Source of the DNA: Thermomucor indicae-seudaticae
Taxonomy: Eukaryota > Mucoromycota > Mucoromycetes > Mucorales > Lichtheimiaceae
Assembly: GCA_000787465.1 (NCBI GenBank)
Contig: JSYX01000325.1
Location: forward strand, 1 to 19,777
DNA length: 19,777 nucleotides
Reading direction: 5' to 3'
In this document: piece after piece, positions 1-18,499 of the stretch
Position numbering within the stretch: the first letter of the stretch is position 1
How the letters are laid out: each line of letters starts with the position of its first letter
Position numbers and translations under genes: made by a program
The notes under the pieces: generated by a model
Told to the model about the DNA's origin: nothing
Database searches by the model: none
What the model saw: only the letters and a program-made list of their open reading frames with translations

Positions 1-799
1 TTTAAAGAATAAACCTGTAATACGAAAATTGCATTCCGCTGAGCTATCTATGATCACTAATCAGGACTTGCTTGGTTTTATTCTTCCGTACGTCCATTTC
101 GTAACGAAAAGGCAACATTACAAGATTCTCAGATAAAGCCAGGATTTGTTCCAGGACTCCAAAAAGCCACTAAATAAGGCATGAAGATTACTCGAATTGC
201 TCCACGACTTATTTACTAAATAAACTACTGTTTAGAAGTTGAGGGCACACCATGTGCCTGCCATGCTATCGAGAATGCTGGCTGGAACTGGCGTGGCGAT
301 CGTCAGAACCGTTTTCCTGTGGGGTTCTAACATACGAAGGCAGGATACTGACGACCGAGAGGGCAACGTGAAGGTATTTCCGCTGGTTCAACAATACTCT
401 ATTTTGAATGAATGTCTGTGTTGTATGGGATTCTTTTTGCGTCAACCATAAATTAAGTCTGCGCTGAAAAGGAATAAAATATGTATCACTTAATTAGAAA
501 TTCGCGCAGATGATACCCTCATTTTGCACACTTACCGCTCAGTTCGCCGAGCTATGCGCAAACTTGATTCAGATCGGCGCAAAACGAAGCCCAAGCACGC
601 ATAAACATTCAATGTTTAGCCTTTCGTTATGTTGCAAATATGACAATGTTTTCCTACCAGCCTGTCGCAAAAGAGAATATTCAGTAACAGTGTCTTGCTG
701 GTAATTGATTTCTTCACTTACGAAGTTACCCGTCAGGAGGACCATCGGGAGTAACAAGTGGTATGACTGTCCCTTTGGCAGTGGCCGCCACAGCATCGA
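1..799. other. Region downstream of the Fanzor relic, no supported gene
   Basis: No reading frame here looks like a real protein and I see no splice-bounded exons. The stretch lies immediately 3' of the leftward-reading Fanzor gene. In described Fanzor and TnpB loci the guide RNA and the downstream element end lie in this position, so a guide RNA remnant could be here. I could not identify a conserved hairpin, inverted repeat or target duplication that marks the element's end. Confidence 0.4.
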
Positions 800-3688
800 C
801 TACATACATAACTCCATCAGATACTGTACGGTGACTGTCAATAATACATTACCATTGCCCGCCGGTGTATGGGGTTGTGCTTTTGTATTCAGCATCCTTC
901 GAGCGGCTGAATTCCTTGAAAAAGGGGCCAACGTTTGACCGGGAAGTAGATGGCTAGCGCTTGCCATGGCGATACATATAGCTGATACTGTGTCTCGATT
1001 TTGCACGGATTTTCCAGCCTTGTATAAGGGACATCTGGTATTCGTACACAACGAAGCTCCGTTAATAGGCTTTTGTTGCTTCTTGCCATCCTTGACGATC
1101 GTGGCTTTTGGTCTCACTACAGGACCGAAGCATGCGATACATGTCTGAAAACTCCTATATTCGTTCGCCATTCCGACAACAGTATGCCGCCGATGCTGCT
1201 TCCTCATTTTTGTTCCTCCTCTTCTCACAGTTCCCTTCATGCGGCTTCCAACTCCGGTGCCCTGGGTGCCGATTAGCATGATAGGAATGCTTTTACGCTT
1301 TCCGGTCGCTTTTAGGATCGCTTTTCGTTCACGCGCGGCGACTTGACTATACGCTTTCTTCGTAGCCAACTCCTGCGACCATTGATCCCGATGGGACCTA
1401 GGAGAATGGTAGAAGCCGCGTAATGCGTCTCGGGTCTCTCGCGCTGCCTATATACAGGGGTTACTTATGACGCTAGATAATATATAGCATTCATATACCT
1501 TTTGGCATTTTTCGACACCTTCTGGTGTAGAAGCTCTTTTGAATAAATTTTCCTTCAGCTTTTTTTCAGCCTCCAACACGTCGGCATTCCGCAATTTTCT
1601 TTTTTCACGTAGGCGCGTAATGTTATTCATCCGTGGTTTTTCGTTCAACTGTTGCGCCGTTATTCGGTGAGGCTTTGGGACATCAACAACTTCATCATGG
1701 CTACTAGATCCATCGAATGAATCGCCTTTATCCTCTAAGATGCTGAATCAGTTGTACAACTCGAGATGCTGCTTGTATTTCTCCATCGTCAAGGGAACGG
1801 TGTTAGACATAGTGCGAATACCATAATCGGTTCCGCCGAAAACCAGAGGTCTGTTTGCTTGCTCTGCCTCGTTTTGAAGTTGTGAAATATCGACCTGTTC
1901 CGTGTGATCTTCACAACCGAGCCTTGTCAATGTCGGCCTAGCCATAGCTATGTCTTGGTCTCGCTCCGCGTCAGCCGAACCTTCTGCTTTTGCCTTTCCC
2001 GTTTTCTTCTCCTCTTTTAACGCTACAAGGCGACCATGTGCGCTGCGAATTGCCATTCGGATATCCTTGAGATCACGCTTGTTCTTGCTAAAGGCAGTAC
2101 CTGCAACAGCACGGTTTGCTTGACATTTCTTCATATTGGTATGATCCGTGTTCTCTTTCGCAGAGTCTTCCAATTTCGCTTTACGGTACTCCTTGTCTGC
2201 TACTCTTTTCTGTTTCTTTATGTCCTCTTTCGCTGCTTGTAGATGATCCAGCTTCTCTTCCAATTGTGCGAGTATGCCTTCCATAGTGCCCTTGTCATAG
2301 TCTTTGAATGGGTTGCCAATTGCTTGATGGGACGATGCTCCTTTCCGACTGCTACGCCGCGTTTCGTACATAGACGTTGCTACTTGAACATTTTCCTTCA
2401 CATGTCCATGTACTCTGGCCGCTTTGAAATGTGTTATATCAATCTGATCATCAAAAACGTATCCATTTTCGTCGCACAAAGCCTTGATCTTTTCGAGATC
2501 GAAGAATGATCCTATGATTGCCTTCTTGTCCTTTTTCTTCGCCTTGCACTCCTTGCTCTGCGCTGACATTCGTTGCACGAATTCTCTCTGACGCGCTTCG
2601 TGCTGTGGTGCAAGCAATAGTCGCAATAAGACCCTCGCCAAGTACTCTGCTGCCTTCTCCAGCATAGTTCCATTTATCATGTTATCGAGATTTGTTGCTA
2701 GATTTTGTACGGCATTGTTGACAGTTGTAAACAACCCAGTGGGTGAACGAGGCACATCACGAAAGCCATCAACTGCTAAATCCGCCCAGAGCGGATGCTT
2801 GTCAGCTGCCGTTGTGTCATAGCTGCCAAGTACTGTTGGTGGATAAACTGTAAATGGTCTACTTTAAAAAGTTTTTCGTAATCCTTGGCTTCGCGAGGCG
2901 ATTTCCTCCGCACTGAAATGTTCAAGCAGCCATCGCAGTCTAAGACAGACCGGTCCCGGATGGCGTGTTCGGGAAGAGACTCGACCCGAAATTTGTGACT
3001 ACCACTTTGATACATATCGCAGTATGGTGGCCCTGATAATTGCTGATAGCTCGGCAAGTTCGTCCGTTATCATTATCGCTGTTGCATCAACTTTTTCATA
3101 GAAAAGCACACGAAGCTCCGGTGGCAAATCATGGCGGAGAAGCTTCTCGACGCGCGTCGTACATGTGCGCAGCTCTTCATGGTGTTTATCTGCGGTTTGC
3201 CTTCTTACCTGTAGTTTGATTTGGGAGGAAAAGTGTCGAAGTGCTGCTTGACATATTCTCTCCAACCCATATACACCTTGCCTCCTTTTCCCAGTGTCGC
3301 CTCTGTTGTTCCGTACTCGACCATGGCATCATTCTTTATTCCAATCCTGTCGGCTTCCGCCCAAGTACTTCTCGGCACCCTTGTTGCGTGAAGGAGCGCC
3401 TCCTTCTTTGTAAGCAATAGCTAATTAATCTTCTCTTGCTCCTTTCTCTTTTGCTCCTCGGTTTTATCCAAATCATCAGTGGTCTTGATAGATTGTATGA
3501 TCTGTCGTAATTTGACCTCGAAGGCTTCGGTTAAATTTTGCTTCGCAACTTTGACGACGATCTTATGGATCTCTCTTGATGATTTCTTTGCACTTGTTTT
3601 AAAAAACAGGAGCCCGCGGATTCTTGTACAAGACTGAGCGTTGAATTGCTTTCCGTCTTTTTGATGGCTTTTTCTTCGCTTTTGACAT
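800..3688 (-). pseudogene. Fanzor: Fanzor (eukaryotic TnpB-like RNA-guided nuclease), N-terminal part disrupted
   Basis: The C-terminal two thirds, all in one frame, show a TnpB/Fanzor RuvC nuclease. The RuvC-I aspartate is in FGGTDYGIRTMS (Asp codon 1828-1826). The RuvC-II glutamate is in GMANEYRSFQTC (Glu codon 1162-1160). A zinc finger has CxxC (1141-1130) and CxxxxC (1048-1031), and the RuvC-III aspartate is in NRDTVSA (994-992). This D-E-CxxC-CxxxxC-D order is the family signature. Two stops inside this frame can be removed by short introns: 1498-1448 is convincing, 1757-1701 is possible. The N-terminal part starts at an ATG at 3688 with a lysine-rich, NLS-like start (MSKAKKKPSKRRK), as expected for a nuclear enzyme. 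It then breaks: frame change at a T run near 3600, TAG at 3423-3421, frame change between about 3290 and 3205, another near 3050-3000, and another between about 2870 and 2780. Full length would be roughly 900 residues. Family assignment is firm; whether it is a true relic or an assembly with indels is open. Confidence 0.85.
1448..1498 (-). other. Candidate 51-nt intron inside the Fanzor gene
   Basis: The donor is AAG|GTATATG and the acceptor is CTGTATATAG|GCAGCG. The length is 51 nt, so the frame is kept. Removing it deletes an in-frame TAG (1450-1448) and joins KCQK to AARETRDALRGFYHS, a helical stretch before the RuvC-II region. The size and border sequences match introns of the housekeeping genes in this window. 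A second candidate at 1757-1701 (57 nt, donor GTACAAC, acceptor CTAGTAG) would remove the in-frame TGA at 1750-1748; it is weaker. Confidence 0.6.
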
Positions 3689-3940
3689 GATGAACTTCTA
3701 TGCAAATCGTCCAACAACAGATCGCAGTGTAACAGGAGTTGTAACAATATTGAAACGTATCAATCGATAGAACAAAGCTGCTCAGTTATTTCTGAAAAGG
3801 TTTAAATTCAAGGTTTTTAAGAAACATTATGCACAACCAAAAAATCACTAAACGTCGCCTGACCCAGAGCAGCCAATTGACTGTTTTCAGCCGCCAGATG
3901 AGGATCACAAGAACCGTACATGGATGCTTCACGTGTATGG
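3689..3940. other. Short spacer between Fanzor start and hAT-type element
   Basis: This is the presumed 5' flank and promoter side of the Fanzor gene. I see no clear TATA box, inverted repeat or duplication that would mark the Fanzor element's left end. Confidence 0.3.
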
Positions 3941-3948
3941 GCGATAGA

Positions 3949-4004
3949 TAGGGTTCCGGACCAGTGCTCTGCTCTGGTTCTGTTCTGGATCTGCTCTGGT
4001 TTCT
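3949..4004 (+). repeat. Left terminal inverted repeat of the hAT-type element
   Basis: It begins TAGGGTTCCGGA and includes GGATCTGCTCTGGTTTCT at 3987-4004. It contains several overlapping copies of CTGCTCTGG/CTGTTCTGG, which could be subterminal transposase-binding repeats as in other hAT elements. Confidence 0.75.
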
Positions 4005-4131
4005 AAAACCCCATAATGTGATGCGTCCAGACCTAACTTGCTTTCCTCCATCGTCTCGTCTTCTCCAGCAAAAGTAATGTAGTTACAGCTATTTCACAAT
4101 GAACACAGGAGCACGCTAGTGTTCGCCGCTT

Positions 4132-4151
4132 GACTCGACTCGACTCGACTC
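4132..4151 (+). repeat. Tandem (GACTC)4 microsatellite
   Basis: There are four perfect head-to-tail copies of GACTC inside the hAT-type element. Confidence 0.9.
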
Positions 4152-4627
4152 GTGGTGAACCCTAGAGCATGTTCTCTCTATTGCAGAAAGCTCTTTCGGG
4201 CATCCACAGACAAATGACTTTCTCCTGGAATCCTTTTGACACTTCAAGCAGTAAGAGGCGTTACGTTCAATTCATATCTTAAATATGTGAATCTCGGCTT
4301 CAGCAAAGCAAGCACTGCAGAAATGAGCATTTTAAAAATTCATGGCGTCTGTGAACAGCTGCCATGATTCGAGGAAGACATAGAACAAGTTTGCAAATCT
4401 CCCCACTGCAACAACTCCGTTGATCGTAATGGCGTGCATTAATCGTGTATATGTCTTTAGAATGAGGTTCCGGAAAGGTGCAAGAGGGAACCAATAAAAT
4501 GTTTATTGACTTCATCCCATATCTTCTGCTAACATCCACAAAGAAATAGGATGCTTTGCTTTGTTGCTTCTGGTTGAGCCGGTTTCCAAAACAAAAAGCC
4601 TTCTTCTAAATTTACAAAGTCACTGTC

Positions 4628-4689
4628 AGAAACCAGAGCAGAGCAGATCCAAGCCTCAATCAGTTCTGCTCTGGTTTTCCGGAACCCTA
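4628..4689 (-). repeat. Right terminal inverted repeat of the hAT-type element
   Basis: This is the inverted partner of 3949-4004. The inner block (4628-4650) matches the left repeat except for one extra GAGCA unit, and the outer 12 bp match exactly. The middle differs, so the repeat is imperfect. Confidence 0.75.
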
Positions 4690-4697
4690 GCTATAGA

Positions 4698-7420: not shown

Positions 7421-8339
7421 GTGCGCTTTTTGTTCCTTGATGCTAGACATTTCGAATCAGGTAACACTCTAAAGCCACGTTGTTGCCCGAACAGTTCGAG
7501 TCCATATAAAATATCGGAGACTGAATTGGGAAACACAAAAATGGGCACTTCATGTGTGATGCCTTTCAAAGAGGCTATTTTTACACCTTTGAAAACGTTC
7601 CATTAAGGACCGAAGTTGTTATTCCAAGGAACAACATTCCAGCAGATCGGATTTGCCCACATGGTATCACACCCCTTGTCTCCGATAAAGTTGTTAATGG
7701 CTCACTTCAAAAGGTGTGATGCTCTTCTAAGTTAATCCTTCTCTGGCATTAGGTGAGAACGTACCTTAGTATACAGTGTCTGGCATCTAGAAATAAAGAC
7801 CAGTGCAGTATAAATGTCATCCCTGATTTCTGCTGACGATGTCTCTTCTGTTAGAGACAAATGTGCTCAGGATGATTTCCCAGCTGTGAAACAAGGAAAT
7901 GTGTGCTCTATGGAAAGCAAATATCAAAGATGTAGTGAACTCCCTTTCAATGGCAGGCGAGGCTAGACTGGGCATATTGACGGCGGATAAGTTGTTATCT
8001 GAGGATGGCCATCAAGACTAGTTCTTCATCAGATGCGATACCTTGTAGACTTGACGCAAAAGTGACCCCTATGCATCCAAGCACCATTGCCCTAGAGCTC
8101 CTGTTCGGTTATACTCTTACGAAACACATATTCTATGTGCGAAGATCTTATGCTAGTCGTCCGTTTCCACTTTAACATCGGATAACCACATACTGCCCAA
8201 CTGTCAGTGAAGATTTCCTTTCTCCACTGAGCTTCCTAGAAGCAGGATCATCCATGTCAAGAATTCGCCGTTTCCGGCACAGGCGGAAGAAATTTTTTCT
8301 GGTTCTTTCACTTTTCACTTACTCGGACGATTGCTGATC
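7421..8339. promoter_or_regulatory. Divergent intergenic region between ORMDL and DPH5
   Basis: About 920 bp separate the two start codons, so this must contain both promoters. It is long for this gene-dense part and may include older inserted DNA. An 8-bp inverted repeat (ATCACACC 7666-7673, GGTGTGAT 7713-7720) is present. A 50-codon frame at 7814-7966 has no recognisable features. I see no other gene. Confidence 0.4.
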
Positions 8340-9453
8340 ATGTTGTATGTTGTTGGACTTGGGTTGTCGGACGAAACGGACATTACAGTAAAGGGCTTGG
8401 AGGCTGTTCGAAAGAGCGAGCGCGTGTATCTGGAGGCATACACATCTATATTGACCGTTGGCAAAGAGAAACTTGTATGTCTTAAAAAAGCAGCGACGCG
8501 ATCTGGACGGAAGGAAGAACAACTCAAACTCAAAGATGCAGCTAGGAAGAGTTTTATGGAAAGCCGGTGGTCATTGCCGACCGTGAAATGGTCGAATCAG
8601 AAAGCGATGTCATTTTAGCGAATGCGGATCAAGTGGACGTCAGCTTCTTGGTTGTAGGCGACCCATATGGGTAATACAAAACGGGCCCTGCTCTCCCACC
8701 CTCCACGTCAGACGGAAGTATTTAACGGTTTCTTGCTTCCGTAGGGCGACCACTCATACTGATCTTGTTATACGTGCTCGAGAATTGGGGATACCTGTTC
8801 AGGTGATACACAATGCGTCGATCATGAATGCAGTAGGCGCTTGTGGTCTGCAGCTTTACAATTTCGGACAAACGATTTCGATTGTCTTCTTTACCGACAC
8901 TTGGAGACCGGATAGCTTTTATGATCGTATCAAGGAAAACAAAGGTCTTGGCCTGCATACCCTGTGCTTATTAGGTAATATTGCAGATGATGTCATGCAT
9001 ACGTTGCTAGGAAAGTAAAACCCCATGCTATTTGTTACAGATATCAAGGTCAAAGAACAAAGTATTGAAAACTTGGCAAGGTAGAATGGAAAAGAAGATT
9101 CCTCATAGTCTCAAACTAAAATACGTGTGTCATTCAGAGGACGCAAGATTTATGAGCCCCCAAGATACATGACCGTGAATCAAGCCATTGAGCAATTACT
9201 GGAAATTGAAGAAAATCGTCAAGAAGGCATCTGCAAGCCTGACTCGTTGGCTATCGGATGTGCTCGTATAGGCACACCTACTCAAAAGATTGTGGCTGGC
9301 TCGCTGGACGAGTTGCTGCATGTGGACTTTGGTGGTCCATTGCATTCGCTTGTTTTGGTTGGGTCAAGAATGCATCACATGGAAGCGGAATTTATTCGCG
9401 AGTTTGCTGTAAACAAATCAACCATTGATCTCCATATGGAAAAGCGTCAATGA
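8340..9453 (+). CDS. DPH5: Diphthine methyl ester synthase (diphthamide biosynthesis methyltransferase)
   Basis: Five exons: 8340-8474, 8546-8670, 8745-8974, 9041-9080, 9138-9453. The product is 281 residues, in line with human and yeast Dph5 (about 285-300). It uses S-adenosylmethionine to methylate the modified histidine of elongation factor 2 on the way to diphthamide, in the cytosol. Hallmarks in order are [44 protein letters not shown], the SAM-site loop [67 protein letters not shown] and PLHSLVLVG. Introns are 71, 74, 66 and 57 nt, all GT-AG. The ATG at 8340 gives exactly the family N terminus. The gene ends only 79 bp before the next gene. Confidence 0.97.
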
Positions 9454-9532
9454 ATACTGCATAAATAAAAATGTTTCAGTTTTGTATTTCTTCATTTCTC
9501 TTCCTCTTACACTACGTTTGCAAAAACCGACT

Positions 9533-9849
9533 ATGTCTTCTTCTACTTACGACGCCGAGAAAAAGGTTAATGAAAACATCGCCAAGGCTTCTAGCAACGC
9601 TCAAGAAGAAGTGACTCGACTACGGGCTGAACTCGATGAGCTGCGTCGCAAGGCTGGGCCCAAAGTCAGAGAAGCAGAGAACTTTCTGACTTCACCAACG
9701 GCTATCGGCTTCTACCAAGGTATGGCCTTCTTATCTTCTTGTTTCTTCAGGAAGAACGGTTGTGATTTACGCTTGGGTAAACAGGCCTCGTCGCCGGTGT
9801 AGCTCTTGTCCTTGCATATGCCAAATACAATGGAGGACTTCGTATTTAG
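9533..9849 (+). CDS. Small single-helix membrane protein, OM14-like
   Basis: Two exons, 9533-9719 and 9785-9849, give an 83-residue protein. Residues 1-50 are charged and helical, likely coiled coil (EEVTRLRAELDELRRK). A short TSPTAIGFYQG motif and one membrane helix (LVAGVALVLAYAKY) follow, ending GGLRI. The motif and tail helix recall small fungal proteins related to the C-terminal part of yeast OM14, a mitochondrial outer-membrane protein, but I rate that as a resemblance. The 65-nt intron falls inside the conserved motif (donor AG|GTATGG, acceptor AACAG). The start ATGTCTTCTTCT has no competing upstream ATG in frame. It sits in the same direction as DPH5 and the SAPS gene, but each gene has its own spacer. 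Confidence 0.75.
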
Positions 9850-10059
9850 ATACATCTACAGAGAAAGTAACCGACATAATAAAAAAGATTGCAACCGGCC
9901 TCTCTTGGTCTATTTGTGCCTTATTCTGATGAAATGTCAGGATTTGCATAGTATAGTAACATGCATTGCATCGGAACAGAAAAACGTGGCATCTGTAACA
10001 CAACGGAGGGGCGCAAAGAAAGGGGTGACACGTCAAAGTTCATCGTTTCTTGCTTTGCA

Positions 10060-12353
10060 ATGTTGCGTCGTCTGGGCTTTGGTCGTGCATCTACACTTGA
10101 AGCGCTCTTGGCGAAACCAAATATAAACTTGCGAGATCTGTTTGAACATGACGATCAGCTGTTACAAGAAGTACATTTGCAAAATCCTAAGCTGATTAGC
10201 TTGTATGTATCTTTCGTGTACACAGTTCTTTCTTTTTTCGTACGGCGAAATGGAGGAGAAAGTTTCCTAAATGTTCGCTGATGTAATAACCGATAAAGGT
10301 TGACACCTCAGTTTACGACAACCGAGCATCTTGTCCCAGTTGGTGAACCATGTCGTTAGCGAAAAGGTCATCCTGCCGTCCGACAGCAACAGCAGCAGTA
10401 ACAACAAGAAAAAAAACTCGTTGGAAGCCTACTTGTCTTGCGAGATCCTAGCGGCTGGCGTGCCTGCTTTGATGGATGGTCTCGTGTTTTCGCACCCGGA
10501 GCTTCTAACCATGTTATGGTCTCTGCTTGATCTGCCACCACAGAGTTTATCTCCGCGTCAGATTGTCGGCTTTTGCAGGATCAATGGCATGCTCCTTCAT
10601 AAACGAACGGCCGACTTGGTGCATTTTATACAGTCCAATCACGATATCGTTGGGAAATGGCTGCAGCATATCTTTGCAGACGGTGGAGCAGGCGTGCCTC
10701 ACCTGTCGGATCTTTTGGTTGCCCTAGTCCAATGTGATCACAGCACTGAAGGCGCAGGCATTGTATCCGTAAGAGCTCAACCTTTTATAGTTTGGTGTCC
10801 TTGTCTTGAAAAATCTCACATTGTGCAGTGGCTTGCAGATCACGGCTTGTTGACTCTCTTAGTCGATCGCTTACAGCCGCAGCTGGATCCATTGGTGGGT
10901 AGATAGATGGATCATAGTGGAGAATAAGATTCTCATCAGACATGGTACCCTCAGAATCACGATATTGCCAAACAAGTCTTGTGTGATATCATTCAAGTAT
11001 CCCAACATCCCTCTTCAACCGAAACCCTTGTTGCGCCGAATGCTTTAATTAATGAACTCACTAGGCAAGTAGGAAACGGATGTTGGCTTTCTTATACATT
11101 AAAGTGACTCTTTTTAAACCAGCTCTGTGACCATGGATCGACTTGCTAGCTATATGCTGGCTCGACCCGGTTCAAATGCATCAAGTACTCTTATGAATGG
11201 GATCGGCATTCTAAAGTCCCTTCGTGAAAACTACGGAAGACGGTAAGCTCAATCTAAACAGACTTTGACAAGAGCGAACCCGTCTTGATTTCATTTAGTC
11301 TAGGCCCTTCGGCAATCATCCATCATCTCCTTCGTCAAGTCCCATATTTTGCCATTTCCTGCGTGTGTTTACTGAGCGCTTGAAGGATTTCACAGACAAA
11401 TTAGATTTGCCTGATCGGAAGGCAAGTAGTACAACAAATGGATTTGGTCATTCGCTATGATATCTTACGCGATATTCTTATAGACAGATGAACATGTCGT
11501 ACAGCCATTAGGCATGATCCGACTTGCAATTTGCGACCTATTGCTTGAACTCCTGTATTGCTCAGACATGTTCAGCGAGTACAGTAAAGATCCAGAGTGT
11601 ATAGAATCTGCCAAAAGGTTTCAACAAGCACTTGTAGATCATGAAGTAGTCCCCCGATGCTTGGTAAGTCTCTTGTTTGAGCTATCATAAACGCGGGCTG
11701 GCTACTTAATTCTCAAGAACTAGGATTTATTTTTTGCATTTCCATGGAATAATATGCTTCATAACATCGTTTATGCATTGTTGCATGAAATTATGCTCTT
11801 TAACAAGAATATCCTTTTATTGGAGGTAACAATTTCGTTTAGAGGGTTTAACTGAGCCGGTACTGATTTTACGAATTGGTATAGATTTTGGATAAAGGTC
11901 GCATAATCGAACGCATTCTTGATGTGGAAAAGCTAAACCAGGATTCAGTGTAAATAAGATTGCATAATTGTACTTATATCATGCTAGTACTAAAGTCTTA
12001 TCCTTAGACGAGAGCGGAGGCAACGCCTCGGTTACATGGGACATATTGTGCTCATATCGAATGATATACGGTATCTGTTTGAAAATAATGAAAGCCTAAC
12101 AGACAGAATACTGGGCAAGGACTCCGACCTAAAATCGCGCTGGGAAGCATTTACAAAGCAAGTTGACGCGCAAATGGAGAGCCAATTGATGTTTAAGGGA
12201 GAACCTGTCTTCTGGTCCGGGAGCAGATACCAGGATACCCAGCGACTTTTCATGGTAAGTCTTGTATCGCCCGTTAACTAGCAATACGAGCAGGATATCT
12301 ATATTCATGCGCTCGTGTAGCAGGATGAAGCCATGACGGTGTGCGAAGATTAG
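10060..12353 (+). CDS. SAPS family protein (Sit4/PP6 phosphatase-associated regulatory subunit)
   Basis: Eleven exons: 10060-10202, 10312-10768, 10829-10894, 10940-11064, 11123-11242, 11304-11421, 11484-11663, 11724-11825, 11885-11949, 12008-12254, 12324-12353. The product is 550 residues and all phases agree. SAPS proteins bind the PP2A-like phosphatase Sit4/PP6 and direct it in cell-cycle and nutrient signalling. Evidence in order: LLQEVHLQNPKLISFL near the N terminus, LSQLVNHVV, STEGAGIVSWLADHGLL, IAKQVLCDII, LMNGIGILKSLREN, QPLGMIRLAICDLLLELL, the signature DLFFAFPWNNMLHNIVY, and RLGYMGHIVLISNDI. The intron after 11064 is GC-AG; the one after 11421 can be read as GC-AG or, 4 nt later, GT-AG. 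The shortest intron is 45 nt (10895-10939). The product is short for the family and lacks a long acidic tail; the last 10-codon exon is the least certain part. Confidence 0.93.
11065..11122 (+). other. GC-AG intron in the SAPS gene
   Basis: The donor is ACTAG|GCAAGT and the acceptor TTTAAACCAG, 58 nt. No nearby GT donor keeps the frame: the GT four bases on leads to a stop in the next exon. The join gives INELTSSVTMDRL, in frame with the conserved downstream segment. Confidence 0.8.
11422..11483 (+). other. Intron with GC-AG or shifted GT-AG reading in the SAPS gene
   Basis: GC-AG reading: AAG|GCAAGT to TTATAG, 62 nt, giving DRKTDEHVV. GT-AG reading: GCAA|GTAGTA (11426) to ACAG (11487), also 62 nt, giving DRKANEHVV. 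Both keep frame and differ by one residue, so the sequence alone cannot decide. Confidence 0.5.
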
Positions 12354-13056
12354 TTCATTTTCGAACCAGGGCCTGTTGTCTGTCAATGGATAACAGTGCT
12401 TCTAAAAGATTTGCATTGTACATACCCAATACTTTATGAAGAGGAAATGTGTATGTTCCCGCCCAACCCATTTTGCATTCAACTGAGCATAGACAACGCT
12501 ATTGTTCTTTCTTTTTCTGTTCTCATTAAACGTTCACTTTTATTGATTTGGCATAAATTAGGATGGAAATTGCCAGATACCTTCCTCTTTTGTTTCATGA
12601 CAACCTATCGTCTTCTAAATGCAGTATCTCTAGGAGACATTGACTGGACGTACTAGCTACACGAAGGTGTAGGCTTTATCTTTTCTCCACAGTACTTCCG
12701 CGGAAAAGGAGCGACAGAGACAATTTGAGCCAACATTCACAAACTGGAATATGCGAACCCAATTGAATAACTGTAGATTGCTCTGAGCGCTTGTTTTCCA
12801 AGCAACGTTGCCTGGCTAACGGCGTGGATAGGCAGACGCGATCTTACTGATCCGTCCCGGACCGAAAAGGGAAGGTACCTGGGGCTGTCCGTTAGCAACC
12901 ACCAACCAATTAGGGACGTTTACTTTATAAGAATGTTTTTAATGGTTTGGTATGCATGCCAGGCCATACTGAAAGATGTTGTATTGACAACTGTATATAA
13001 ACAAGGCCACCGTTTGAAGTTATCGAGGGCCCAATTGTTTTCCTTTTTTCATCGTC
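12354..13056. other. Intergenic region: SAPS 3' end and secreted-protein promoter
   Basis: The left part should hold the SAPS 3' UTR. A 50-90 codon open stretch (12396-12656) lacks any family feature. The right part is the promoter of the secreted-protein gene. An inverted repeat GCTAACGG (12815-12822) and CCGTTAGC (12889-12896) could be a paired regulatory site. Confidence 0.5.
12906..13001 (+). promoter_or_regulatory. Promoter with CCAAT and TATA boxes
   Basis: CCAAT lies at 12906-12910 and TATATAAA at 12994-13001, 56 nt before the ATG at 13057. This is the clearest core promoter in the window and suggests strong or regulated expression of the secreted protein. Confidence 0.65.
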
Positions 13057-14564
13057 ATGAAGCTTATTAGTCTCGCAAACGTTTTGGTTGTGCCGCTTGC
13101 TTTTGCCTCCCCCTTCCAAGCTGCTACTCCTGTCCGCGTAAGTCCACCATTCCCCTTTTCTTTTTACTGTTTACTGCATGCACCCTGTACTTATTGTTAT
13201 TATTAATAAAGGCATCCGATACGTCATCGATCGATGTGGCAACGATGGTGCCCCAAGCGGTCGCAGCAGCCTTTGAAAAGAATATGGATATCGTGTTGAC
13301 CGAGACGCAGCGTCGGATCGATAAAGAGATTGCTCAAAAGGCGCAAGACATGGGATTGGCGGGCCCAAGAAACCTGGAAGGACTGCTACGCGACTTGTTC
13401 AACTATGACCCCGTGCCCATGGTGTCGACGGTACCGGTTCATCAGCAAAAAGGCTCTACAACCGAACTGGATTACCTCGAGGCCGTGCTGAGCGACACTG
13501 CAAAAGCTCTGGACAGCTTGGTTAACACGACGATCGCCGATATGGACCGAGTCCTGGGTGACGATATAGTTATCCAGCCTTTACCTGGCGTTAGTAGTAG
13601 TAATGAAGAGTCCCTGACTCATTTGGAGACCGATATCGTCAATACGCTGCGTGAACTGTTGAACAAGATCCTGAGGCAACAACAGCAGCCGTTCTCATTA
13701 CAGTCCGTCGTCGACCAGCTCAAGCAAATCATTAGAGCCTTGTTGAGTCATCTTACGGGTGCTGGTGGCGACAATAGCCCACTGGTGGAAGACCTCCAGG
13801 CCTCGGTCGGCGATTTGGTTCAGGGACTATCTGCCGAATATAGTCATTTGGTTCAGGGCACGGAATCCGTACTTGTTGACTTGTTCAAGAATCTAGGCGG
13901 CAGCTCTGCGGTACTGACTCCTCCTCCTCCTCCTCCTGCTGCTGCTACTGCTAATCAACACGGCGCAAGTAGTCTGATTGGCATGCACCTCGCTCTGCGT
14001 ATCGACGAAACCGTCCAGTCTATACTCAAAGACGTCCAGGACTACAAGCACGCGGTTCTGGTCGGCCAAGCACTCTCGGACTCGGCTGGACGCTATATGG
14101 TCAACCTTTTGCGACATGCCAATGGTATCCTAACCTCCCTCGAACAGATGCCCGAAGCCGAATTCCTTCACCGCTTCGTCGAACTGGAACCCCTCCTGGT
14201 CAGCGTCGTCAACGCCCTTCAGACGATCGTCGGTGGCCCCGAAGATAGCATCACAAGAGCTGTTCGTGACATTCTGCATATCCTCGGCGGTTTGGTCGAA
14301 ACCATCAAACACATCCTGTTCGGCTCTAGCCCTATCCTATCTAAATCTCGCGCTATTATCAGCCTTGAGCACCTCGTCCCCAAACTCCTCATGAAGATCT
14401 TTGGCAAAGTCCTTGCCAACCACCCTGAATTGGTCCCTATCGCTGAGAAGCTCATGTCCATTCTAAGCCATATCCTTGGCGAAAACCCAACCATCTCCCA
14501 AGAACAACTACTCCAGGCTGTCAGGGCTGTCCTCAAGGACTTAAGCGAAATCAAACTCAAATAA
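13057..14564 (+). CDS. Secreted helical protein, function unknown
   Basis: Two exons, 13057-13137 and 13212-14564, with a 74-nt intron. The product is 477 residues. Residues 1-17 are a typical signal peptide (MKLISLANVLVVPLAFA), with cleavage likely after AFA, so the protein should enter the secretory pathway. The mature part is rich in leucine, isoleucine and valine in amphipathic helical repeats (for example TLRELLNKILRQQQQ, LVEDLQASVGDLVQGL). A central linker of six prolines and an alanine-rich stretch, encoded by (CCT)6(GCT)3 at 13920-13946, splits it into two helical halves. No cysteine is seen in the mature protein and no further membrane segment is obvious. I do not recognise a family. 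It could be an envelope, lipid-binding or structural secreted protein; the sequence does not say which. Confidence 0.85.
13813..13858 (+). repeat. Short internal duplication in the secreted-protein gene
   Basis: ATTTGGTTCAGGG occurs at 13813-13825 and again at 13846-13858, 33 nt (11 codons) apart. It encodes the repeated HLVQG/DLVQG motif, an 11-residue periodicity typical of amphipathic helices. Confidence 0.85.
13920..13946 (+). repeat. Coding trinucleotide repeat (CCT)6(GCT)3
   Basis: It encodes a Pro6-Ala3 linker between the two helical halves of the secreted protein. Such runs vary in length between strains. Confidence 0.9.
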
Positions 14565-15077
14565 GTTCTTTTTTTCATCTTTATTTATTTATCTATAGTT
14601 AATAGGCTTAAATACGAACGCATTTTGCACAAGCCTTTCAATCCTTTGCACCGAGTGCAACGTTTTCTCCACGGGTTTATACATGATCAAACATTTCGCC
14701 ACGAGACTTCTTTCAATAAACTTCCTTTAAATACGAGATCATAACACTTGACAGAGCGTATAAATATTATAAATATTCCACCAATGGCAAAACCTCTTTT
14801 TATTCACGAAAAAAAAGGAAGCAGAACTCACGATACATGTGCGTTATTCATGTTCTTTATTCGTTTTTGAGATCATGGTAACAGTTACAGACAACAAAAA
14901 CAGGCAACTAACTTGTATTCAAGCGCGTGTTCCGAGTCTAATGCTTCAGATGACTGTCTTTTTAGTGTCTTAAGGTACTCCCAACTCTCACGAGCGCAAA
15001 GTGATTCGAACAGGCAATGCAGAGTAGCATAGAATTGAATCAGGGCAAAAGTGTACAATCAAGAAGTTCATTATCAT
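14565..15077. terminator. Convergent 3' region of the secreted-protein and hydrolase-phosphatase genes
   Basis: This AT-rich 513-bp spacer lies between two converging genes. AATAAA-like signals (for example near 14716) and long A/T runs fit polyadenylation regions for both strands. I see no gene. Confidence 0.55.
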
Positions 15078-17358
15078 CTACCGCTTCGGTAATACGTATC
15101 GAAGATATAATTCATCGACAAAATGTGCATGTCTATGTATCATGATATTAGATGATGAACAAAGATGCGATGTTTCTTTTCCCCTTTTACCTTATTCCTG
15201 GTGGACGTGCATCTGCAAAATATCGAAGTGCATCCTGCACTGATACACCTAGTTTCTCAATCATGTAGCAGCAAATGAAAAATCCGGTCCGGTTGAACCT
15301 GGAGAAAATTAGCATTAGGGAATAGGAAAGACAACTGATACCAATCTATATTTTACCCGTAATGGCAGTGTACTGCAATCTGAGCTTTTGGTTTCTTCTC
15401 CCAGCATTGGGCCGCGATTTCAATAAATTTGCGCACATCATCGCGTTCTGGTGGTATCTTTGACACCGTTCTCAACTTGATGTATTCGACTCGGGAGTGC
15501 TCAAAGTCGCTGGCACGGTAAGGCGGTGTATCGTTCGAAATATCAATTATGAAGCCAATTTCAGGATAGTTGGCCAAGAACGCTGAAGGACAGTGGTTGG
15601 GGTCTGTTTGTCGCATGACCTACATAGCCCTTTCGCTCAAGGAAACATGATTTCTATACAGCTCACGAATAAGTCTTCGTTACCTTCATGGCCCTGAACA
15701 GAGAAGGACCAATTGGCTTTGAAGTAATGTTTGCGGTACGAGCCCACTAAAAGGAACGCATGGATCAGCAGGCAACCCACATTTAGCCCATCTTATGGCA
15801 TCGATATCGTTTACCTTTTCGTAATTCTTCAAATCCCACTTGTTTTCACCTTTTGTCCGGTGCAGTGCCTGCCAAGCACCACTTAAGGTATGAAGACCGC
15901 AATTTTTCACCAGAAAATCCGAAACGACAGGGTTGACGAGCTCAGGATGGACAACCATTGGTAAATGGCCCACGTCCGGTATGACGTATGGTTCAGGAAC
16001 TCGTATGCCATCCGCATGGCTTACAGTATCCCATTTAGTATCTTCTGGGTCCAGCCCGAGAAGATGATTTCGAATCACGTTCACATCATTGGGTGGTGTT
16101 ACTTTATCCTAATCCGTATCATGTTGGTTTTCCTTGTAATAACCAGAACTCTGTCTGTCCCTCTTTGGCCCTTACCTCACTTCCGCTGATGAGCAGGACG
16201 CCAACCTTGATCTTTTGGTATACCTCGCGTGATGGAAAACTAGCACCGTAAACAAAGCGCTTGTACGTTGCCGTGCGACTTTGCAGATTCCAACGCAGCT
16301 GCCTAAATACATCTTTCTTTAATCCACAACATCCCTCTCCCTCGTAAAACGAATGCACACACAGAGAACCTTACTTTCGACGCAGGTGATCCTCGGCATC
16401 CAGGCCAAGCACTCGCTCCACGCATTTGCTGTTCAATCCTCCTTTGCGATCCGCTGTCCGAGCAAACTCAAATAACCAGTCGGGGATCCACCTTAACGTC
16501 CGCTGGCTCTTCTTCTGCTCTTGCTCGATGTGTTCTTTTGGAGATATCAATACCAATCCTCTTAAACTAGGTTGTATCAAAGGCGACGCAGCAACATGTG
16601 TCGCAATCGAGCATCCATACGCATGAGCAATGATGACCGTGGACGGATACTGGTACCGATCTGTCAATAGACTGGCGACATCTTTGACGAGACTTGACGT
16701 GGCATACATGTTCCAACTGCCATAGCCACACGAGGTCATCAGATAATCCAGACTAATGGGATCATTTCCTTTCTAACGTGACCTACTCTAGGCTCACTTC
16801 ACTTTGTCCGCAACCCAAAAGATCGACCGCAAGCACGTGCGCCGTTTGGGAAAAGTATTCGATCTGACTTTGCCACTGCGATACCTGAACGATAAAGGCT
16901 TCCCATGTTATTATTATGTGGCGCTAATCGTGTGGGCGTGCGCTCTCACCTGTCCTCCCAGCCCATGAATAAATACAAGCAAGGGTACCTTGCTGCCAAG
17001 TTCATGAATAATGTGCACAATGCGTAATCGATGTCCATTGATCTCTACGAATTGCGTATTCTCCGCAATAATAGCCGGCTCGGCTGTATTGTCATTAAAG
17101 AACAGAGTGAGAATGACAATCGCTCAAACATTTACTGTGCCATATCGTTTCCCACTTGCGTTCAGCTAAGAGTGCGCGTTCTAAGTGCGCTTCATTAAGA
17201 TCACGTTTTGTAATGAGGTAACAGAGTCGCTGAAGCAGCCGTCTTTTCAGGTGCCGAGGGTCCCTGTAGAGATAAAAGGTGCATGCGAGTGTGGCCAAAG
17301 TAAATGCAATGGCAACGTTTTTATAATTAAGGGACAGCTTTAGCAATCGCGGAGGCAT
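15078..17358 (-). CDS. Alpha/beta-hydrolase fused to a dual-specificity phosphatase, N-terminal membrane anchor
   Basis: Ten exons: 17358-17136, 17083-16950, 16884-16787, 16716-16375, 16302-16176, 16108-15815, 15746-15684, 15619-15357, 15298-15191, 15132-15078. Total 1707 nt, 568 residues. Residues about 12-30 form a likely membrane anchor (VAIAFTLATLACTFYLY). Next comes an alpha/beta-hydrolase: oxyanion region FIHGLGGQVSQW, DLLGCGQSE, elbow IIAHAYGCSIA, acid-loop SGSEDKVTPP and VIPDVGHLPM with the histidine. In relatives the elbow is GHSxG; here the serine is alanine (codon 16622-16620). A cysteine-dependent phosphatase follows: IIDISNDTPPY, VHCHYGFNRTG (the CX5R loop, Cys codon 15367-15365), ARPPGIRHAHFVDELYLRY. 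This phosphatase resembles the RNA-triphosphatase/DUSP11 side of the family. I infer a membrane-bound protein with an inactive or altered hydrolase and an intact phosphatase. The ATG at 17358 is preferred over one at 17499, which would overlap HOP2. Confidence 0.9.
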
Positions 17359-17449
17359 TGAAAAAAGGGTGGGGAAAGGCAAAGAGAAGAAAAAGCTGCG
17401 GAGCTTTTGCCCCGTCGTATGCAGAAACACGAACAGCTCTTGTATCGTC
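17359..17449. promoter_or_regulatory. 91-bp bidirectional promoter between the fusion gene and HOP2
   Basis: The two start codons face away from each other and are 91 bp apart, so both genes must share this space for initiation unless their transcripts overlap. The strand read by the hydrolase-phosphatase gene is pyrimidine-rich just before its ATG. No TATA box is visible. Confidence 0.6.
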
Positions 17450-18499
17450 ATGGGCAAAAAAAAGCCAAGTAGTGCCGACGGTATATTGCCGTATTTCATT
17501 GAATCGCAGACGAGTCAATAACCTTAATCGTTGTTGTAGACGAAGTACTCGAGTATCTACGCAGAGTCAATCGCCCGTATAGTGCTAGTACGAATTCTTC
17601 GCTTTTCCTGCTTCTGGCGTTAGGCTTATTTCTTGAACAGCTGACATTTTCAACAATTTACACGGGAAATACCAAAAAACGGCCATCACGAAGGCATTGG
17701 ATCGCTTGATTGAACAAGAAGATGTTGTGTCAAAAACATATGGCAAAATTGTCATTTATGCCATCAAGCAGGCAAGTTATCTTTGTATGCCGACGGTTCA
17801 TACAGTACCGCCCTTATGCAAATGTTGCCAGCGCACCGATGACTTGCCGTCCACGGAGGATATTCAGGCAATGGACACAGAAATTGAAAAGCTGTCGAAA
17901 GAACTCGAAGAACTTAGGAATATGAACCAGCAACTGGCCCAATGTAAACAAGTGCTTTTGCAACCAATTATTTACCATGATGGCTGAAAAGACAAATTTA
18001 GCTATCAGCAGCCTGAATAGCACACCGTCCACGTCCGATGCCCGAGAATTGCTGAAAAAGACGCGTCAAGAGGTATATTGTTAAACGCTTTTTCGTATCC
18101 ATCTAACCACTCTTCTTTCCCTGCCCAGTAGAACGTTATGTACAAGGAGCGGCTGGAGAGTCTACGATCTGGCGTCGTGCTGATCCCAGAGGCTGAGAGA
18201 AAAAGCGTTGATGCCGAATATACGAAATACAGAAAGGAATGGCGTACAAGACGAAAAATGGTAACGTGAACCAAGAGAGGAAAAGCAGGGCGATAGTAGG
18301 CTAAACTTTTAGCAGTTTAGAGAGATCTTAAATGCTGTCGCTGAACATATCCCAGGTAAAACAGAGTCGTTCATGGTAAGTTATCACTCAGGTCAAGAGC
18401 GTTGCAACTATGAGGTTTTATGCAACGTTGGAACAGGAGGAGCTTGGAATAGAACAAGATCCTATTCCATACGAGCAAGACCCGCTTGCGGCTCTGTAA
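17450..18499 (+). CDS. HOP2: Homologous-pairing protein 2 (TBPIP/Hop2), meiotic recombination
   Basis: Eight exons: 17450-17480, 17540-17587, 17641-17771, 17832-17943, 18002-18072, 18132-18260, 18316-18375, 18437-18499. The product is 214 residues, nearly the length of human PSMC3IP/HOP2 (217). Hop2 with Mnd1 helps Dmc1/Rad51 find and invade the homologue in meiosis. The N-terminal winged helix is clear (EYLRRVNRPYSATDIFNNL, ITKALDRLIEQEDVVSKTYGKIVIY). A coiled coil follows (STEDIQAMDTEIEKLSKEL), then the conserved KYRKEWRTRRKM and FREILNAVAEHIPGK, ending in GIEQDPIPYEQDPLAAL. Introns are 59, 53, 60, 58, 59, 55 and 61 nt. The third is GC-AG (CAG|GCAAGT) and, being 60 nt with no stop, would add 20 unrelated residues if retained. 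Its presence means the fungus keeps a meiotic recombination gene. Confidence 0.95.
17772..17831 (+). other. GC-AG intron in HOP2
   Basis: The donor is AAGCAG|GCAAGT and the acceptor ATGTTGCCAG, 60 nt. Splicing joins IYAIKQ to RTDDLPSTED, matching the family. The unspliced reading is open but inserts a cysteine-rich stretch not found in Hop2 proteins. Confidence 0.8.

Follow-up and report, generated by a model that had tools for sequence, protein, structure and literature searches.

What is to be made of a gene that keeps the catalytic residues of a Fanzor nuclease but whose N-terminal part cannot be translated in one frame? Fanzors are nucleases of eukaryotes, related to the enzymes with which CRISPR systems cut. 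The locus lies on the minus strand of a 19,777-nt stretch of Thermomucor indicae-seudaticae DNA (the window), which is contig C281 of a 24.8-Mb, 735-contig assembly, and paralogs were compared within those contigs. We read it, with a probability of roughly 0.85, as the decayed remains of a Fanzor1-type gene, long and with introns, within a mobile element that has a large hairpin end at position 394 (Table 1). Judged by sequence comparison, it is one of many related Fanzor-type copies in this genome.

Table 1. Features of the window and their positions, with features of the element first and host-type neighbour genes last.
Feature	Position	Strand	Remark
Element with Fanzor-type copy	394..3800	minus	3' terminus near 394, 5' limit approximate
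Conserved 3'-terminal hairpin	394..617	minus	candidate omegaRNA/right-end RNA scaffold
Last exon	803..1447	minus	RuvC-II, zinc ribbon (TNB), RuvC-III; stop codon 802-800
RuvC-III Asp (NRD)	992..994	minus	
Zinc cysteines	1141, 1132, 1048, 1033 (first base)	minus	
RuvC-II Glu	1160..1162	minus	separated by six residues from first zinc Cys (Ealt spacing)
Intron, 51 nt	1448..1498	minus	GTATATG..TATATAG, holds in-frame TAG 1450-1448
Coding stretch	1499..1747	minus	from real stop to intron
TGA	1748..1750	minus	real nonsense change
Open stretch, 371 aa	1751..2863	minus	RuvC-I (GTDYG); joint of missing middle near 2530-2560
RuvC-I Asp (GTDYG)	1826..1828	minus	
Broken N-terminal coding part	2829..3688	minus	frame-aware alignment to C498 relative; C26 comparison
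Tetrapyrrole-methylase-family protein	8211-9018		host-type neighbour gene
SAPS domain	10304-10906		host-type neighbour gene
Bud6-like N-terminal domain	13071-14564		host-type neighbour gene
Dual-specificity phosphatase	15353-15619		host-type neighbour gene, weak match
Alpha/beta hydrolase	16371-16772		host-type neighbour gene
Hop2-type winged helix	17637-17987		host-type neighbour gene

Family identity and catalytic motifs

The Fanzor-type identity proposed in an earlier note on this DNA is supported by profiles of the family and not by the window copy alone, for which no match was found in Pfam or in the PDB, nor any in a protein search at E 0.001. Searched against the 177,635 sequences of the PDB, a profile of the relatives (A5) placed SpuFz1, the Spizellomyces punctatus Fanzor, first (E = 5e-4), the sole other match having an E value of 0.41. 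A second profile (A1) gave three matches, the top two of which were SpuFz1 (E = 0.0094) and the Parasitella Fanzor PpFz1 (E = 0.055). Parasitella parasitica, the host of the latter, belongs to the Mucorales. Seven of 11 copies matched the Pfam TNB domain (PF07282), the best of them at E = 1.1e-4. In a Foldseek search with a structural model of the relative P0001, which is modest in quality (mean pLDDT 64, pTM 0.38), the top five matches were chains of SpuFz1 (PDB 8gkh) and PpFz1 (PDB 9cf0) at E 2e-3 to 4e-3; none reached E 0.001, TM-scores were low, and a second structural aligner returned Cas12, TnpB and Fanzor structures intermixed. On the evidence of the profiles, the family is homologous to Fanzors.

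Profile searches assigned 14 further proteins (P0001-P0014) to the same family, all of them short predictions (102-437 aa) that carry no function at source. Their named sources are Rhizomucor pusillus, Mortierella alpina, Mortierella sp., Benniella, Radiomyces spectabilis, Dissophora and Mucor mucedo, which are Mucoromycota. A tree of 20 rows, in which 4 of 17 inner branches had good support, joined the window to C498, Rhizomucor P0002 and Radiomyces P0010, a grouping supported at 100/97. Besides the profile match, the family resembles SpuFz1 in its D-E-D layout, with the Glu just ahead of the C4 zinc ribbon, and the genome resembles that of S. punctatus as described in PMC10432273, where many copies and ghost ends likewise occur together. 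With coding spans of ~3.5-3.8 kb, introns included, in C486 and C339, the relatives are longer than most Fanzor1 proteins, for which PMC11423790 gives 600-700 aa. Fanzor1 elements of related fungi have been described from Rhizopus, Phycomyces and Mucor (ROr, PBl and MCi; PMC3627910); the present family, likened to them by description and not by sequence, may or may not belong there.

The D-E-D residues occupy the positions given in the earlier note and, as it had stated, share one frame with the four zinc-finger cysteines, the three minus-strand open stretches 2863-1748, 1747-1448 and 1447-800 forming one frame, and the catalytic Glu sits on the loop preceding the TNB domain, as described in PMC11423790. 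Bao and Jurka defined a Fanzor motif, D-X(125,275)-[TS][TS]XX-C4-X(5,50)-RD (PMC3627910). Along this motif, the window, its intron excluded, has Asp and Glu 205 residues apart (~208 to the Ser) and a C4 finger followed by RD (R 997, D 994), but S-F in place of [TS][TS]. The second of these sites is Phe (1150-1148) in the window and Ser in all 10 other aligned copies, and by this alignment the window copy has lost the second Ser. NEYRS, which had been singled out as an unusual RuvC-II motif, proved to be nothing of the kind, NEYRSSQTC being the family consensus across 11 aligned copies; in these alignments, the unusual features are instead the Phe at 1150-1148 and the family's DYG at RuvC-I.

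DPG combined with Ealt (ExxxxxxC, in which the Glu precedes the zinc finger by six residues) has been presented as the Fanzor fingerprint, and DPG at RuvC-I has been called near exclusive to Fanzors (both in PMC10711439). The window has the Ealt spacing (Glu at residue 96, first Cys at residue 103) but not DPG. Across 13 copies, comprising the window and 12 of the 20 related loci, RuvC-I reads DYG in 11, DPG in C228 and DCG in C116, so that the family, mostly DYG, differs from SpuFz1. The window copy is therefore called a divergent Fanzor1-type relative and not a typical Fanzor. This departure is the more interesting point and lies outside what the earlier note had found: should the family be Fanzor1, the published fingerprint would miss a multi-copy fungal lineage. 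The motif also varies inside one family in one genome, C228 having DPG and the 12 others DYG or DCG.

Decay of the coding region

Between RuvC-I and RuvC-II the frame contains two stops that are absent from the earlier note, TGA at 1750-1748 and TAG at 1450-1448. The TAG is no lesion, because it ends a 51-nt intron. Side-by-side comparison by eye placed GTATG or GTATA ~50 nt ahead of the conserved frame restart in 10 of 15 loci. Splice-aware alignment to P0001 was applied to 12 copies, namely the window plus those 11 among the 20 loci that were picked for matches to both RuvC-I and the last exon. The method can produce false introns, and additional ones in C424 and C116 look spurious. Ten of the 12 copies, the window included, were given an intron here, with C228 and C116 reading straight through; a second, upstream intron was placed in nine, the window, C498 and C116 being without it. 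The TGA, by contrast, is a genuine nonsense mutation. Its site encodes Arg in 7 of 12 other copies, the remainder having His, Lys, Lys, Ala or a deletion, and between RuvC-I and the last aligned residue it is the sole stop or frame change in this copy.

The N-terminal part is far more damaged. Frame-aware alignment to the C498 relative, whose N-terminal frame is open over 303 aa, located a TAG stop at 3423-3421 and four changes of frame, close to 3607, 3234, 3007 and 2829. The earlier note had recognised this breakage and placed two frame changes at T runs. The breakage itself stands, as does the run at 3603-3598 beside a frame change; the run near 2868, on the other hand, falls within a stretch in frame with the relatives, and the shift sits near 2829. 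A copy on C26, 94-96% identical to the window at its two ends and deleted between, has the run at 3603-3598 in identical form. In the same region it shows a one-base difference near 3233, CAG in place of the stop at 3423, ATA at the window's first ATG and one-base losses of its own. A middle segment is also missing from the window: between ~2560 and ~2530, relatives have ~770-1,120 nt more, as measured in five copies (C498, C228, C339, C486 and C640). This segment is homologous among 10 copies, the window frame continues through the joint, and a PDB search with a profile of the segment turned up no Fanzor.

The earlier note had also considered an intact gene whose N-terminal frame is broken solely by homopolymer sequencing or assembly errors. 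One frame change does adjoin the T run at 3603-3598, but with that run the same in C26 and the other one in frame, we regard this explanation as very improbable; it would in any case leave the TGA nonsense codon, the N-terminal TAG (CAG in C26) and the missing middle, none of which is a homopolymer error. As far as the aligned copies tell, the N-terminal breakage is decay. The frame change near 3607, being common to C26, suggests that part of this decay is older than the split between the window and C26.

The recent inactivation that had been proposed is supported in part: residual constraint speaks for it, but the copy has gathered several lesions and lost a large internal piece. Against C26, pN/pS was 0.35 over 103 codons (8 synonymous and 9 nonsynonymous changes; Fisher p 0.036 on rounded counts), and against C61 it was 0.59 over 288 codons (23.5 synonymous, 51.5 nonsynonymous; Fisher p 0.026 on rounded counts), the counts being small and both C26 and C61 being broken themselves. 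From these ratios, constraint seems to have acted during part of the time since the window, C26 and C61 split. The nuclease of the window copy is almost certainly dead. Elsewhere in the genome, 5 of the 12 copies show neither a stop nor a frame change between RuvC-I and the last aligned residue, a span short of full length; C353 among them has Asp for the Glu and C261 is without one zinc Cys, leaving C228, C339 and C486 with all D-E-D and C4 residues. A broken copy alone is ordinary transposon decay, and the family behind it matters more; its DYG motif and hairpin end raise the interest moderately.

The 3'-terminal hairpin and its possible role

Divergent copies have a noncoding 3' end in common. 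Of nine ends compared, six finish in CAGTA, two in GAGTA and one in CACTA, and the sequence past the terminus is different in each. Seven of the nine fold into a long hairpin (z -1.8 to -6.2), the 3' ends of C633 and C142 folding no better than shuffles; the window hairpin has z -4.5 over 220 nt and -2.8 over 247 nt. In an alignment of the seven hairpin ends (A2), from which C633 and C142 were left out, 84.6% of cells pair, compared with 30-48% when the partners are slid. Both-side changes occur in 18 of 48 pairs, compared with 11.2 in shuffles (18 being reached in 2 of 500), and the covariation score is 0.350, compared with 0.274 in shuffles (reached in 0 of 500); for all these statistics the structure was derived from the same alignment. 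The RNAalifold covariation term of the seven-copy alignment, at +0.66 kcal/mol, is weakly unfavourable.

A model of the seven ends (R1), searched against 21 sources, gave sense-strand matches in 10, the window among them, at E values up to 1; those from outside the model were C593 (E = 1.4e-5), C142 (4e-4) and C633 (0.018). In 11 of the 20 related loci, R1 gave no sense-strand match; three of these have another common 3' end, two have a third, and one is cut by the contig end. The sense fold is more stable than the antisense fold in all seven ends, and G-U cells outnumber A-C cells by 49 to 26 (p 0.011), a test that is biased in that the structure was picked on the sense strand. The 3' end thus forms a covarying hairpin, ~220 nt long and fixed at its terminus, which we propose as a candidate guide-RNA scaffold. 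With such a candidate, guide sequences could be taken from the flanking DNA of several copies.

Two variants of the ends were seen among the related loci. L029, L030 and L037 (on C486, C192 and C424) represent another subfamily, with a short hairpin GGCGTTC...GAACGCC followed by TAAAAA and different flanks; GCGTTC is found in two of the three. L026 (~5440) and L035 (~5147) have a common 5' boundary, TTATTGGATTT..., which looks similar to the 3' end in reverse complement and is possibly a terminal inverted repeat.

By analogy with known Fanzors, intact members of the family would be RNA-guided DNA nucleases, the hairpin end would be transcribed jointly with flanking DNA as an omegaRNA scaffold, and the DNA below position 394 would serve as the guide. 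For Fanzor1, the scaffold of the right-end RNA is predicted in PMC10711439 to include the terminal repeats and to continue into the flank. The hairpin would be large for this role: at ~220 nt it compares with a SpuFz1 small RNA of 88-90 nt (PMC10432273), and PpFz1, by contrast, is described as having the smallest known omegaRNA scaffold (PMC11423790).

The hairpin may instead be purely a transposon end acting at the DNA level, palindromic and foldback- or Helitron2-like, with no RNA scaffold, and we give this reading somewhat less than even odds. Helitron2 ends bear hairpins (PMC3627910), covariation alone cannot separate RNA from DNA pairing, and a solo copy on C393 is near-palindromic over 378 nt (z -32), as for long terminal inverted repeats. 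The greater stability of the sense fold in every one of the seven ends and the excess of G-U over A-C, the latter in a sense-biased test, speak against this reading, as does the prediction that Fanzor1 terminal repeats lie within the reRNA (PMC10711439); by the same prediction, DNA-end and RNA roles can coexist.

The window copy would have no working nuclease left, though its 3' RNA could still be made. Guide-donor ghost loci have been proposed in Spizellomyces, where 134 ghost loci are described and ghost RNAs of four loci were functional with SpuFz1 in human cells (PMC10432273). That the window copy is such a locus, dead as a protein gene but with a hairpin end retained to supply guide RNA to intact Fanzor-type copies at other places in the genome, seems unlikely to us, though several observations fit. 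The window hairpin still folds, its sense strand does so more stably, as in the other ends, potential recipients may exist among the five copies that are lesion-free from RuvC-I onward, three of them with all D-E-D and C4 residues, and one solo end (C393) has no detected Fanzor gene. Compared with C26, the 224-nt hairpin has zero indels, with 7 internal indels (12 with end gaps) in the three further segments of the alignment, which total 1,266 nt; zero is, however, not significant where ~1.2 are expected, and hairpin substitutions (4.9%) are as frequent as elsewhere (3.5-7.7%). Trans use of the window copy's RNA end is put forward hypothetically. We hold as doubtful at best the wider proposition that a lineage within Mucoromycota has long Fanzor1-type nucleases, encoded with introns, that join DYG to Ealt, an unexpected pairing in Fanzors, and an unusually large palindromic right-end RNA, and in which decayed copies and solo ends act as trans guide-RNA donors. 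Small-RNA sequencing would make the host role of such Fanzors, including guide supply by protein-less loci, directly testable.

The solo palindromic element on C393 (L051 1213-1590, C393:9058-9435) has ends like those of the Fanzor-type elements, and no Fanzor coding match at E 0.01 was found in 3.4 kb around it, a stray match having E 0.12. Of two other solo-end candidates, C645 retains weakly matching pieces of a Fanzor gene (E 2e-4 and 1e-3), and C176 runs into the end of its contig.

Element limits and surroundings

The limits of the decayed Fanzor1-type element were drawn from the C26 copy, which aligns from ~3801 to 395 with both ends abrupt, and from an empty-site comparison with a left-flank paralog on C134 that is without the element. 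No transposase domain was found at E 0.01 in 10 open frames from seven loci. Compared with Helitron2 and other transposon superfamilies, the window copy has the 3' hairpin, and no 5' element end was recognised in it; MCi-2 and MCi-5 are characterised in PMC3627910 as being without recognisable terminal inverted repeats. Beyond the element lie host-type genes (Table 1), 3 of the 10 neighbour frames tested at 8211-17987 being without a match.

A second element stands beside the Fanzor-type copy, at 3944-4694, bounded by 17-nt GGGTTCCGGA-type inverted repeats that are 94% complementary and 717 nt apart, with TGCTCTGGTT repeats inside. It looks like a non-autonomous DNA transposon, and pieces of 3949-4117 match several further sites in the genome.
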